From assembly GCA_023558315.1 (NCBI GenBank), contig JAMJVX010000008.1:1-34197 (forward strand): a stretch of DNA of 34,197 nt, read 5' to 3'. This document shows, in pieces, positions 2 to 34,197 of this stretch (position 1 is the first letter of the stretch; the number at the start of each line of letters is the position of its first letter). The translations under genes and the position numbers were made by a program. This stretch comes from Flavobacteriaceae bacterium. GTDB lineage: Bacteria; Bacteroidota; Bacteroidia; Flavobacteriales; Flavobacteriaceae. Under the pieces are notes generated by a model. It was not told the origin of the DNA. It saw only the letters and a program-made list of their open reading frames with translations, and made no database searches.

Positions 2-3000
2 AGTGGCGCCACAGTATCTGGAACTTTAGTTGATGTAGGAACGAGTAGCGTTACTGCGCATGGGCATTTGTGGAGTACTACAAACAATCCAACCCTCACT
101 GGAAGCGGCGTAAGTAAAAATGACTTAGGAACGGCAACCACTAGTGGTGTAAGTTTTACAACAAACATCTCTGGACTTAGTGAAAATACTACCTATTATA
201 TCCGTTCCTTTGCAACAAATAGTGTAGGAACAGGGTATGGTGCTGTCAAAAACATTACAACCTTAGAAAATGCAACCTTAGGAGAAATCTCTGGTTCTTC
301 TCAAGTAAGGATTACAATCAGTGGAAGTGGTGCTAACACCTCTGTTACAGTCTCTTCAACTATCACAAAACTAGGTTCTAGTACAATCACACAACACGGA
401 CACGTATATAGCACTACTGCTCAGAATGATAATCTAGTTATAGGAGCGGATAATGTATCGCGTACAAAACTAGGAACGAAAAGTGAAGCAGGTAATTTTA
501 CTTCAACGCTTGAAAACTTAGGAGGTTTTTCTACCTATTATATACGTCCGTATATCGTTACAAATGGAACTATCATCTATGGAAAGCAAAGTAGTTTTAT
601 GACTCCTCCAGGAGTACCTACAGTTACGTTAGGAAATGCTATTCCAACATTAAATAGCATTACTATCTCGGGTGCTATCACAAATTTAGGAGGAGAAGGA
701 GCGAGTATTACAGAATATGGACATATTTGGAGTACAACAAGTGGCAATTTATTAACTTCAAGTACAAAATCAACATTTACAAATGCCACAGAAACAATAG
801 GCTTTGAAAGCGAAGCCAGTGGACTGACTAAAAACACTGAGTATTTCTTTGTTGCGTATGCCTCCAATGATACAGGTACTGGATATAGTCAAGTACAAAG
901 TTTCTATACGCTAAATGACCTAGCTAATATTGAAAGTTTAACTATCGCCGTTTCTGGAACTTCCTTTACACAAACAAGAAGTACCGCTGATAATACTATC
1001 TCTGGAACGACTATTGGTTTTACGGATTTACCTTATGGAGCAACACAAGCTGAAGTCACTGCTGTAACACTTTCTAACCAAGCCAGTGCTATGATCGGTG
1101 TCAATAACTTTACGCAAGGAAGTGTACTTTCAGTGGGTAGCAACAATGTCACAGTAACAGCAGGTAATGGTGGAACTCAGGACTATACCCTAACTTTAGC
1201 AACTCAAACTGCAGTAGCGCCTACGGTTACTACGCTAAGTGCGGAAACCATTACTATTAACTCAGCGACTCTAAAAGGGCAAATCACTGACTTAGGCGTA
1301 AGTCCGCTTAGTGGTTATGGATTTATCTATTCTGCGTTAACAGATACAGGAAATCCGATAAGACTTTATAGTAATAATTTAGATTCGGAGAACGTGTTTA
1401 GTTCAAGCATAACTGAACTTTCTTCGGGTACTACGTATATCGTATCAACTTTTGCGGAAAACGATGCTGGGGAAGTAGGAGGAAGTCAAGTAGAAATATT
1501 TAATACCTTAGCGTCTAGTGAAAAAGCGATTACGGCAATAGCATTTACGTTGACAGGGAATAATACATCCTACTCTGGAACGTTTTCTGGGAATAATATT
1601 ATCGTTAATGATATTTATTCTAGTGCTACGCAAGCAATGATTGCTTCAATAACCGTATCTGATTTTGCTACAGCAGACAAAACTGAGGGAGATATTATTG
1701 AATTAACTGGAGAAACTATTACCGTCACTGCACAAGATAATAGCACACAGTCGTATAGTGTGACTCTAAATACCACAATTCCTATACCCCCAACGGTAAG
1801 TACTTCAAATGCTACCAATGTATCCTATACTACAGTTACATTAAATGGGGAAGTGACCAACACTGGAAATAGTCCAATCAGTGGCTATGGATTTATTTAT
1901 AGTTCAACCTCTGGCGGAGCACTTACGTTAACAGGAAGCGGCACGCAAGTAGAAGTAGGAAGTGTTATAGACGCATCGAGCTTTACTAACAATTTAACTG
2001 GATTGTCTGATAATACTTTATACTATGCGGTGGCTTATGCCTCTAATGCTGGAGGAGCCGTTTATGGTTCTGTAGTAAGTTTCACAACTTTAACCTCTAC
2101 ACCACCGATGGTAAATACAACCAGTGCATATGTTCTTTCTGGTTCAGGAATTAATTTTATAGGGGATTTACTTAATTTTGGAGCAGGAATGACACAAGTA
2201 ATACAGCATGGATTTATCTATGCCGACTCAAGTATCTCTGGAAATGAATTGAGAATAGGAGAAAGTGGTGTAACAACTATCAATTTAGGTGTAAATACTA
2301 GTTTAGGAAGTTTTAAACACATTATTAGTATAGGTTCGTTAGCAGGAAATTTAAATGTAAGAGCATTTGCTACGACAAGTGCAGGGACCACTTACGGAAC
2401 TAATACTATAACTTTCAATGCATCTTCTACTCCTTCAACAGGTATCTCTACTGTAGCAGAATTGCAAGCAATCAATGATAATTTAGATGGTAATTATATA
2501 CTGTTGGCAGATATTGACCTTAGCAGTATTGCTAATTTTGATCCTATTGGAAGTAATTCCAATAATTTTACTGGCGATTTTAATGGAAATGGATATGTGA
2601 TTAAAAACCTTACTATCAATAAACCAACTTCAGATGCAATTGGATTATTTGGAGTTGCGCGAAATGCAACTTTTAACAATGTATGGTTGGAAAATATTAA
2701 CATAAATGGGTATAGTGATGTAGGCGGATTACTTGGAAAATCTTATTATAATGTTTCTATAAATAACTGTTCTGTAGTAGAGGGTAATGTCAATGGTGAT
2801 GGAAATTTAGGAGGATTAATTGGGGAGGTTTATAATAACGCACCTATTACAATAGATAATAGTTTTGTAATAGGTGTAGATGTAGTAGCACAAGATTCGG
2901 CTGCAGGAGGTCTGGTAGGTTATTTTCATCATGGTTCTAGTAATTCTAACCGTATTTCAAACTCTTATGTTGTGGGAGGGATTGTTTCTGCTAGTTTTAG

Positions 3001-3787
3001 ATATGGAGGATTAATAGGTTATGTAAGTAGGGGTACTATAGAAAACAGTTATAGCACCGCACTTATAGGAAGATCTAGACGATATTCCACTTCTTCAACA
3101 GCGGGCGTGTTTGGAAGTAGAGAATCCCCTATTGTTTCTTCAAATCTATATTGGAATACAGAAACCAGTACCATGAATGTGGGTATTGGCGGTTATGGAG
3201 GGGCAGATGGTCTTAATTCCCGAACAACTGCTCAAATGTTGGCAGGTAGTTCTAACTATAATGGTTTTAATGATACAAATTGGGATTTTGGAACGTCTTC
3301 GTATCCAACATTAAAAAACAATATAGTTCCAGCCAATACACAATCACTATACCAAGCTGGGGGTAATATTCAACTTACAATGGAATCTTCAACAGGAGCT
3401 AATTTTTATATTGGTAGGACTACTAATAGTCAAAGAGACACCTATGTAGATGCGAGTTCTTATAGCACTGAAGGAAGTGAGTTATACATTTTTGACGTCA
3501 ATGCCTTTGCCGAAAACGATACAAGCCGTGTAGATTTTTGGGATTGTACGGAAGGTTCAGGAGATACCATTCTTACAACGAGTGCTATTAATGGAACCAG
3601 TGTCACATTACAATATGGTTCAGGAACTACAGGCGATAAAACGGCTTGGGCAATGAGTGGGAATTGTACAATGGTACGTGCTGCTACGGGTAGTAATCCA
3701 GTTACTGGAAATGTATTAGATTTAGAAGCCGTACTATCTAAAGGAGGAGAAAGTTACACTAGGCGTTTTAAAATTACGTTTGAGTAG
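2..3787 (+). CDS. Large modular surface protein, 5'-truncated by the window edge
   Basis: The frame is open from base 2, so the true start lies upstream; the first ATG (68) falls inside a repeat and is not a real start. Seen in order: fibronectin-like modules centred on the motif GH-[LVI]-[WY]-S-T (about nt 59, 395 and 712), a cadherin-like beta sandwich (about 930-1205), a module with GYGFIYS (1312), a second cadherin-like sandwich (about 1520-1775), modules with GYGFIYS (1882) and QHGFIYA (2203), then a GLUG-type region (about 2442-3310) with repeated GGL[LIV]G, and an unassigned tail ending RRFKITFE. Modules usually end in YY-x-R/A-x-A-x-N and GTxYG. This composition fits a secreted adhesin-like protein; I see no type A or type B T9SS C-terminal domain. 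It is richer in G+C than most of the window (42% in the line starting 301). A strong terminator follows. It is paralogous to the gene at 33501. Function is inferred from architecture only. Confidence 0.85.
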   Translation, partial: SGATVSGTLVDVGTSSVTAHGHLWSTTNNPTLTGSGVSKNDLGTATTSGVSFTTNISGLSENTTYYIRSFATNSVGTGYGAVKNITTLENATLGEISGSSQVRITISGSGANTSVTVSSTITKLGSSTITQHGHVYSTTAQNDNLVIGADNVSRTKLGTKSEAGNFTSTLENLGGFSTYYIRPYIVTNGTIIYGKQSSFMTPPGVPTVTLGNAIPTLNSITISGAITNLGGEGASITEYGHIWSTTSGNLLTSSTKSTFTNATETIGFESEASGLTKNTEYFFVAYASNDTGTGYSQVQSFYTLNDLANIESLTIAVSGTSFTQTRSTADNTISGTTIGFTDLPYGATQAEVTAVTLSNQASAMIGVNNFTQGSVLSVGSNNVTVTAGNGGTQDYTLTLATQTAVAPTVTTLSAETITINSATLKGQITDLGVSPLSGYGFIYSALTDTGNPIRLYSNNLDSENVFSSSITELSSGTTYIVSTFAENDAGEVGGSQVEIFNTLASSEKAITAIAFTLTGNNTSYSGTFSGNNIIVNDIYSSATQAMIASITVSDFATADKTEGDIIELTGETITVTAQDNSTQSYSVTLNTTIPIPPTVSTSNATNVSYTTVTLNGEVTNTGNSPISGYGFIYSSTSGGALTLTGSGTQVEVGSVIDASSFTNNLTGLSDNTLYYAVAYASNAGGAVYGSVVSFTTLTSTPPMVNTTSAYVLSGSGINFIGDLLNFGAGMTQVIQHGFIYADSSISGNELRIGESGVTTINLGVNTSLGSFKHIISIGSLAGNLNVRAFATTSAGTTYGTNTITFNASSTPSTGISTVAELQAINDNLDGNYILLADIDLSSIANFDPIGSNSNNFTGDFNGNGYVIKNLTINKPTSDAIGLFGVARNATFNNVWLENININGYSDVGGLLGKSYYNVSINNCSVVEGNVNGDGNLGGLIGEVYNNAPITIDNSFVIGVDVVAQDSAAGGLVGYFHHGSSNSNRISNSYVVGGIVSASFRYGGLIGYVSRGTIENSYSTALIGRSRRYSTSSTAGVFGSRESPIVSSNLYWNTETSTMNVGIGGYGGADGLNSRTTAQMLAGSSNYNGFNDTNWDFGTSSYPTLKNNIVPANTQSLYQAGGNIQLTMESSTGANFYIGRTTNSQRDTYVDASSYSTEGSELYIFDVNAFAENDTSRVDFWDCTEGSGDTILTTSAINGTSVTLQYGSGTTGDKTAWAMSGNCTMVRAATGSNPVTGNVLDLEAVLSKGGESYTRRFKITFE
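2442..3310 (+). repeat. GLUG-type repeat region inside the surface protein
   Basis: The encoded segment begins STVAELQAIND...GNYILLADIDL, the usual entry into a GLUG-containing solenoid. It then repeats units of roughly 30-45 residues of the form VGGLLGK, LGGLIGE, AGGLVGY, YGGLIGY separated by N-x-S-[VY] strands. It ends near YWNTETS and WDFG-x-SSYPTLKNN. In known proteins such regions form beta-helices on exported proteins. The repeats are protein-level; I see no long identical DNA repeats. Confidence 0.7.
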
Positions 3788-31917: not shown

Positions 31918-31925
31918 TATTTTTG
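31918..31925 (+). promoter_or_regulatory. -7 promoter element for dnaB
   Basis: TATTTTTG matches TAnnTTTG and ends 6 bases before the dnaB ATG. The predicted transcription start would fall on or next to the start codon, giving a leaderless or nearly leaderless mRNA. Confidence 0.5.
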
Positions 31926-31931
31926 CCGACT

Positions 31932-33446
31932 ATGAACGAAACAAACCCAAATTTTATTCGTCAAAACGCTGATAATTCTAATATTATTTCTTTAAATAAG
32001 GGAAAAGTACCGCCTCAGGTTATAGACCTAGAAATTGACGTTTTAGGTGCCATGCTTATTGACAAAAAAGGAGTGGATGAAGTTATTGACATTCTTCACC
32101 CAGAAGCCTTTTATTTACCTGCACATCAAAATATTTTTAAAGCAATTAGAACACTTTTTGAAGAGGGACAAGCCATTGATTTACATACCGTTTCTAATCA
32201 ATTAAAAAAAATGTCAAAATTAGATATAATTGGTGGAGACCACTATCTTATAGAGCTCACACAAAAAGTAGTTTCTTCCGCACATATTACTCCCCATGCT
32301 TTTATCATATTACAAAAACATATTCAAAGACGCTTAATCACAATATCTGGAGAAATCAATCAACTAGCTTATGATGATTCAAAAGATGTATTTAATATAT
32401 TGGATGAAGTGGAATCTAAACTATATGACATTACCCAAAAAAATACAAAAGAAGCGGCAAAAGAAGCGAAGGGATTAGTCATAGAAGCCAAAAAGAAAAT
32501 AGAAGAAACGGCAACTAAAGAAGGATTGAGCGGTGTGCCAAGTGGTTTTGAAATGATCGATAAAATCACTACGGGATGGCAAAATAGCGATCTTATCGTG
32601 ATTGCGGCTCGTCCTGGGATGGGGAAAACAGCTTTTGTCCTTTCCATGGCGAAAAATATTGCCGTAGATAACAAAACGCCTGTTGCCTTTTTTTCATTAG
32701 AAATGCCCGCAATACAACTGATGATGCGATTAATCTCTTCAGAGACCAAAATACATTCTGAAAAACTAAGAACAGGTAAGTTAGAAAAACACGAGTGGGC
32801 ACATTTAAATGACGGAGTTACGAGTTTAGAGTCAGCGCCACTATTTATAGATGACACCCCCTCACTTTCTATCTTTGATTTAAGAGCAAAAGCACGTAGA
32901 TTAGTTTCTCAACACGGAATTAAAATAATAATTATTGATTATCTGCAATTAATGACTGTCAGCATAAAAAATGGGAATAGAGAGCAAGAAATTGCAACTA
33001 TTTCTAGAAACTTAAAGTCTTTAGCAAAAGAATTAGACATTCCAATTATTGCCTTAGCGCAGCTATCAAGAGCCGTAGAAGTAAGAGGAGGAACAAAACG
33101 TCCTTTACTATCTGACCTTAGAGAATCTGGAGCCATTGAACAAGATGCAGACATCGTTTCTTTTATTTTTAGACCCGAATATTATAAGATGGAACAATGG
33201 GATGATGAAGATGCGAGCCCTACAAAAGGTGAAGCCGAATTCATTATTTCAAAACATAGAAATGGAGGTTTAGGAAATATTAGGCTTCGTTTTCTCCAAA
33301 ATTTAGGAAAATTTGAAAACAAAGAAAGTTTTGATTCGGGTATCTACAATTCTAAAATGAACAATGTAAAATTAGATGCGAAATATAACTCCTCTCCAAA
33401 CGAAGCCTTTGACGATAACTTTGACAATAACGGAGTGCCTTTTTAA
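31932..33446 (+). CDS. dnaB: Replicative DNA helicase DnaB
   Basis: The 504-residue hexameric helicase unwinds the chromosome at replication forks. Seen: the N-terminal primase-interaction domain (PPQVIDLEIDVLGAMLIDKKGVDEVID...FYLPAHQNIFKAIRTLF, about 27-75), a linker helix region, Walker A IAARPGMGKTAF (about 227-238), FSLEMPAIQLMMRL, Walker B IIIIDYLQLM (about 331-340), REQEIATISRNLKSLAKELDIPIIALAQLSR, and SDLRESGAIEQDADIVSFI. No intein interrupts it. I start at ATG 31932; the TTG nine bases upstream lies inside the -7 element. A long acidic Asn-rich tail ends NNGVPF, resembling the acidic tails of single-strand binding protein partners. Confidence 0.97.
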   Translation: MNETNPNFIRQNADNSNIISLNKGKVPPQVIDLEIDVLGAMLIDKKGVDEVIDILHPEAFYLPAHQNIFKAIRTLFEEGQAIDLHTVSNQLKKMSKLDIIGGDHYLIELTQKVVSSAHITPHAFIILQKHIQRRLITISGEINQLAYDDSKDVFNILDEVESKLYDITQKNTKEAAKEAKGLVIEAKKKIEETATKEGLSGVPSGFEMIDKITTGWQNSDLIVIAARPGMGKTAFVLSMAKNIAVDNKTPVAFFSLEMPAIQLMMRLISSETKIHSEKLRTGKLEKHEWAHLNDGVTSLESAPLFIDDTPSLSIFDLRAKARRLVSQHGIKIIIIDYLQLMTVSIKNGNREQEIATISRNLKSLAKELDIPIIALAQLSRAVEVRGGTKRPLLSDLRESGAIEQDADIVSFIFRPEYYKMEQWDDEDASPTKGEAEFIISKHRNGGLGNIRLRFLQNLGKFENKESFDSGIYNSKMNNVKLDAKYNSSPNEAFDDNFDNNGVPF

Positions 33447-33500: not shown

Positions 33501-34197
33501 ATGAAAACGCATGTAAAATTCCTATTTTTTTCAACTTTAATTGTTTTGGCTACAGCCTTGACTATCTATCAATGTGAAAAACCAAAGTCTGGCGAAAACG
33601 CCTTGACCAAATTAGTCGTTACTGCCGACAAAGACTATACCGCAACCATTGCAGGGACCAACGTCACTTTTGCCGAGAGCTTTCCCTACAACACCACGCA
33701 AGTGACTATAAAAACCCTAGAAGTTTCTCCAAATGCCTCTGACGATAGAGGGGTTGGTGGTGTCCTACAATCAGGGGGGGGACGACATCGTCGTGACTGC
33801 CGAAAATGGAGATATGAAAATATACAAAGTGGCTTTTACCTTAAAAGCATTGGCTGGATTTATAGCCGTCACTGGAACAGACCAAGTGAGTATCGCCACT
33901 AGCGAAAGTGGGTCAGCCCTTGTGGTAAAAGCGACCTCCTCCGTTGCTAGCGTTGGCTCTGGGAGCATTACCCAACACGGACACGTCTATAGCATTTCCG
34001 TACAAAACGACGCCTTAGTCTTAGGCGCAGACAATGTCTCTGCATCTCAATTGGGAACATTAGCCAGTGCCGCTGCGTTTACCAGTACTTTGACTGGACT
34101 AAGTGCCTTTACTACTTACTACATCCGTCCGTATGTGACTAACGAAGCAGGTACGGCTTACGGTACGCAACACACCTTTAAAACTCCAGTGGGCAAA
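33501..34197 (+). CDS. Modular surface protein, frame broken at a G8 run, 3' end beyond the window
   Basis: The first frame (33501-33902) begins MKTHVKFLFFSTLIVLATALTIYQCEK, a signal sequence with a Cys that might be lipidated, although Q before the Cys is atypical. A cadherin-like sandwich (LTKLVVTADKDYTATIAGTNVTFAE) follows, then the frame turns to nonsense after LQSGG at eight G (33774-33781). In the frame beginning 33781 the same sandwich resumes as DDIVVTAENGDMKIYKVAFTL and stays open to the window edge. It adds a module ITQHGHVYS...TYYIRPYV that matches residues encoded at 386-607 in 44 of 74 ungapped positions by hand count. Seven or ten G would join the frames. No -7 element is evident upstream. 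The gene is strongly GC-richer than its neighbours. It could be phase-variable, a fresh pseudogene, or a sequencing error. Confidence 0.8.
33774..33781 (+). repeat. G8 homopolymer at the frame break
   Basis: Eight consecutive G follow CAATCA and precede ACGACATCG. In frame 1 this reads Ser-Gly-Gly-Gly-Arg-His and soon stops; with one G fewer it reads Ser-Gly-Gly-Asp-Asp-Ile-Val-Val, restoring the domain. It is the longest G run I saw in this AT-rich window. Confidence 0.85.

Follow-up and report, generated by a model that had tools for sequence, protein, structure and literature searches.

A run of eight consecutive G (33774-33781, plus strand) breaks the reading frame inside the coding sequence of a lipoprotein gene. 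Its likeliest explanation, to which we give a probability of about 45%, is one recent +1 slippage at a G run that stands by chance in a Gly-Gly-Asp motif. Taken alone, the tract is probably nothing unusual. The window comprises contig C8 in full (34,197 bases), which belongs to a flavobacterial MAG of 1.56 Mb in 83 contigs with a completeness of 91.8%. The source is an uncultured flavobacterium, and a scan with dnaB gave other genera of Flavobacteriaceae as nearest relatives, at 66-72% protein identity over dnaB.

The frame break and its surroundings

The features of the window to which we refer in the following are:

2..3787 (+): second member of the lipoprotein family, 5'-truncated by the opposite contig end; it begins at C83:8213 and continues from C83:8213-8751
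31923..33446 (+): dnaB, replicative helicase, intact upstream neighbour, 54 bases before the lipoprotein ATG
33501..33902 (+): 5' part of the lipoprotein gene as read, with lipoprotein signal, an A domain cut about two thirds through and an off-frame tail
33736..33773 (+): stretch strongly diverged from the closest paralog, directly before the tract, in surrounding DNA that is about 97% identical
33774..33781 (+): G8 run, where the frame breaks; as the paralog reads it, the run encodes Gly-Gly and the start (one or more bases) of Asp
33781..34197 (+): downstream part, open in a different frame and free of stop codons; it holds the last part of the A domain and a single FN3-like B domain

The open reading frame that starts with the ATG at 33501 comprises 133 residues, the last 39 of which form the off-frame tail, and ends with a stop codon at 33900-33902. 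Past the tract, the other frame has 139 codons without a stop, which start at 33781 and reach the last base of the contig (34197), 416 bases from the tract; the 3' rest of the gene is located beyond the contig. No second lesion was seen in the 417 bases downstream of the tract. The eight G and the frame break, both claimed in the original prediction, were confirmed as genuine in this sequence, and the downstream frame is open over the 139 codons proposed, as far as the contig goes. It had also been proposed that either eight or nine G would switch the protein off after about 133 residues. This is correct for eight G, whereas the nine-G version would reach a stop after about 98 residues (ACG ACA TCG TCG TGA follows the tract).

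Near the gene start, the search for inverted repeats, as for an invertible promoter, yielded just two short chance-like pairs, and the only tandem repeats near the lipoprotein gene are short and imperfect. Among the other gene pairs tested in the window, no split genes were detected. At the opposite end, positions 1-99 are identical to the end of contig C83 (L073:8653-8751). Contig ends that overlap by exactly 99 bases suggest an assembly of the short-read de Bruijn type. Indels in homopolymers are rarer in short-read data than in long-read or 454 data.

A lineage-specific family of modular lipoproteins

The gene belongs to a family of modular outer-surface lipoproteins that is specific to the lineage and has roughly 50 members. 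Iterative profile searching of the genome stretches recovered 50 ORF pieces, which contain 121 A domains of about 82 positions and 129 B domains of about 93 positions; in total, the family accounts for 117.5 kb, or 7.5% of the genome. The C-terminal parts often contain leucine-rich repeats or an M26_N-like region. At the N-terminus of the window gene there is a lipoprotein signal (…TIYQC, with the Cys at residue 25; …LATALTIYQCEKPKSGENALTKLVV…), and the lipobox cysteine by which bacterial lipoproteins are recognised is present (MKTHVKFLFFSTLIVLATALTIYQC). By a simple pattern match alone, a charged-hydrophobic-Cys start, mostly …QC[EK]KP, was found in 38 of the 39 members with a 5' end. The lipobox-type N-terminus supports the surface protein that had been predicted from the window. 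The more specific designation as a secreted adhesin is unproven: the N-terminal signal is that of a lipoprotein, and the adhesive part is a guess from the FN3-like domains.

In a model of the A-B pair the A domain is poor (mean pLDDT 53.7), whereas the B domain was modelled, at a low depth of two sequences, as a beta sandwich with a mean pLDDT of about 75. The top Foldseek matches of this B-domain model are FN3 domains of titin and other proteins (best E 3.7e-4, TM at most 0.69 by target length). By this model, the B domain may resemble fibronectin type III domains; its sequence is lineage-specific, and its Pfam matches (fn3 and Pur_ac_phosph_N) are weak, with scores below gathering.

The assembly breaks at the family repeats, and 21 contig ends, among them the two of the window, are located in family genes. 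The comparison with 40 relatives by DNA, which included no genome of the same genus, and with 397 Flavobacteriaceae genomes by protein revealed weak domain matches and no ortholog, and a contig scan with the downstream peptide likewise found no ortholog in other genomes. One further member, at C45:82676-83017 (-), is a pseudogene: an internal deletion has fused its A domain to the C-terminal tail in the wrong frame, which shows that single copies of the family do get lost.

Comparison with the closest paralog

The closest paralog is located at C67:91-786 (-) and shares 91% nucleotide identity with the window copy over 628 bases, which bears out the paralog match of the original prediction. It carries seven G at the homologous place, in frame, and reads straight through. 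The flanks of the two copies are unlike, since the C8 copy lies beside dnaB and the C67 copy beside a dehydrogenase-like gene (named by its sequence), and therefore they represent two loci and not versions of one. As in a contingency locus, the window gene has a repeat in the reading frame whose length sets the frame, with G8 here and G7 in the in-frame paralog.

Identity between both copies is a mosaic: the signal peptide reaches about 60% and the early mature protein 97%, and a diverged stretch of about 38 bases is followed by 88-97%. The diverged bases at 33736-33773 form a pattern that gene conversion by a different copy would leave. The protein part encoded beyond 33781 is in places unlike C67, for example around FIAVTGTD.

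Between the C8 and C67 copies, dN/dS amounts to 0.18 in the part upstream of the tract and to 0.19 in the downstream part, as against 1.1-1.4 in the two wrong frames, and 16 of the 28 downstream differences fall on third codon positions. As dN/dS is low in the right frame and the differences are mostly in third positions, constraint acted on the downstream part during most of the period after the two copies diverged, and the intact downstream coding signal noted in the original prediction is found again here. Purifying selection appears similar on either side of the tract, so that the break would be either recent or not real. The open downstream frame as such is weak evidence: in a simulation, 7 to 14 random substitutions left this frame stopless in 62-79% of runs, and the absence of stop codons therefore adds little.

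G runs in the family and in the genome

Among about 122 A domains, runs of at least six G at the homologous site occur in the C8 and C67 copies only. The copy next closest to them (C10) reads GGGGGTGAC at this site, and the longest G run is two in 78 of 125 aligned pieces. A G-run site conserved across the family was rejected, because only these two copies carry it. The tract is no more than a Gly-Gly-Asp that happens to read GGG GGG GAC.

Enrichment in the family was assessed by shuffling synonymous codons within genes (100 shuffles), with the window gene left out. Five runs of at least seven G were observed where 2.7 are expected (shuffle maximum 7), and two runs of at least eight G where 0.8 are expected (shuffle maximum 3). 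Compared with the codon-shuffled genes, the family has no clear surplus of G runs, such as contingency loci would call for.

Genome-wide, 24 runs of at least seven G are present (18 G7, five G8 and one G9), with no run above nine G and no second mode of long runs. With this number in 1.56 Mb, a run of seven or more G is nothing remarkable by itself. Two of the other G8 runs lie at C11:40650 and C61:6280. All 24 were inspected, and 23 turned out to be coding and one intergenic. The window tract is the sole frame-breaking run among the 23, while the other 22 are in open frames. Thioredoxin-reductase-like and Ppx/GppA-like genes (named from motifs) are among the hosts of these open-frame runs. 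Because the window run alone is out of frame, the genome has no set of off-phase G loci, and the picture is unlike that of a genome with many contingency loci. A systematic miscalling of G runs was rejected as well, since all 22 other coding runs are open, and these include five with a length of G8 or G9.

The longest run, a G9 at L042:2638-2646 (contig C13), lies in frame in a minus-strand gene (2380-2784) for a 135-residue family lipoprotein with a single A domain. If any tract in this genome is a switch, this one would be the better candidate, in its 'on' state.

Comparison with known G tracts

G8 is a borderline length for switching, because the 'mutable' class (6G-8G, arising from genome composition) and the 'hypermutable' class (more than seven G) of PMC4235727 overlap there, G8 tracts occur among the phase-variable loci of C. 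jejuni (PMC4965091) and the cut-off for the Neisseria phasome is nine G (PMC7371114). Like the loci in C. jejuni and Neisseria, the window gene contains a G run in the frame of a surface protein, where +1 or -1 switches the frame. Unlike in those loci, the run has only eight G and is unconserved at its site, and the genome around it is devoid of a set of long or off-frame G runs. Mismatch repair is present, with MutS (869 aa) and MutL (602 aa) encoded in the genome, whereas C. jejuni is without it (PMC4235727). In the open-access literature searched, no description of G-tract switching in Flavobacteriaceae was found.

A different comparison is offered by singleton frame breaks in otherwise conserved genes, which are expected to be sequencing errors or indel mutations (PMC3711429). 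With these the window gene shares that one member is broken and an intact relative reads through. It differs in belonging to a multi-copy surface family, so that a functional loss may be tolerated.

Origin of the extra base

According to the likeliest reading, the Gly-Gly-Asp of the A domain happens to be encoded as a slippable run that is common to the window copy and its closest paralog, and ordinary replication slippage would have added one G to the window copy. This would end translation at residue 133, partway through the A domain, so that the allele would be off. The loss would be recent, and tolerated as dozens of paralogs remain. Being slippable, the run could revert at low frequency, but nothing points to its selection as a switch. 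We infer that a biological mutation added the base, that it happened recently and that it was tolerated owing to redundancy. That constraint acted until recently is suggested by the dN/dS values on both sides of the tract and by the share of third-position differences. The open frames at the 22 other coding runs argue that the assembly is generally right on such runs, so that an error at this tract is less probable, though it keeps some weight. Against slippage stands the location of the tract near a contig end, in a family with 21 such ends, where collapsed or mixed reads are likeliest.

This location leads to the serious rival that we rank second, namely a consensus or assembly error in an intact gene with a true G7. 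We hold it to be less likely than slippage, yet a MAG in 83 contigs invites it: the sequence around the tract matches a second contig end at 91% identity, family genes interrupt the assembly repeatedly, the frame is constrained on either side of the tract, and an error is one of the two causes expected for singleton breaks (PMC3711429). The caution about indel errors at G runs in the original prediction is supported. The other G runs of this length were nevertheless assembled in open frames, G8 and G9 included, the 99-base overlaps give the assembly a short-read look, and the window is without other split genes among the pairs tested. A fixed pseudogene with more damage past the contig end would have a precedent in the deletion pseudogene on C45, and the 3' part of the gene is absent from the assembly. 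However, the downstream bases are free of a second lesion and dN/dS there is low, which a very young pseudogene would match too, and we regard this explanation as improbable.

The phase-variation device of the original prediction, in which slipped-strand mispairing would turn the gene on with seven or ten G and off with other lengths, reversibly and under selection, comes third and is unlikely. It would fit a surface lipoprotein with G8 within its reading frame and an intact frame downstream, and the length lies in the mutable-to-hypermutable range (PMC4235727) and among those used by C. jejuni (PMC4965091). Reversible switching at the candidate tract is possible, because G8 is a slippable length. 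The findings on the genome nevertheless speak against a device: the run is unconserved at its site, G runs are in no clear excess, none exceeds nine G, one of 23 coding runs is off-frame, and MutS and MutL are present, as distinct from C. jejuni (PMC4235727). The tract also falls short of the Neisseria cut-off (PMC7371114), and the family Flavobacteriaceae has no such switching on record in the open-access literature searched. Ranked last, and hardly credible, is recoding, where ribosomal or transcriptional slippage on G8 would yield some full-length protein. A homopolymer is a slippery sequence and both sides are constrained, but the closest copy needs no recoding, the site is unconserved and no stimulating element is evident.

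Significance

There is a small chance that the G8 acts as a slipped-strand switch of a surface lipoprotein in a Flavobacteriaceae lineage, free or host-associated, and contributes to antigen or phage-receptor variation within a family of 50 copies. If shown, such a switch, or recombination among the copies, would mean surface variation in a group for which the literature searched has no G-tract switching. More interesting than the tract itself is that a small genome devotes about 7.5% of its DNA to about 50 modular lipoproteins.
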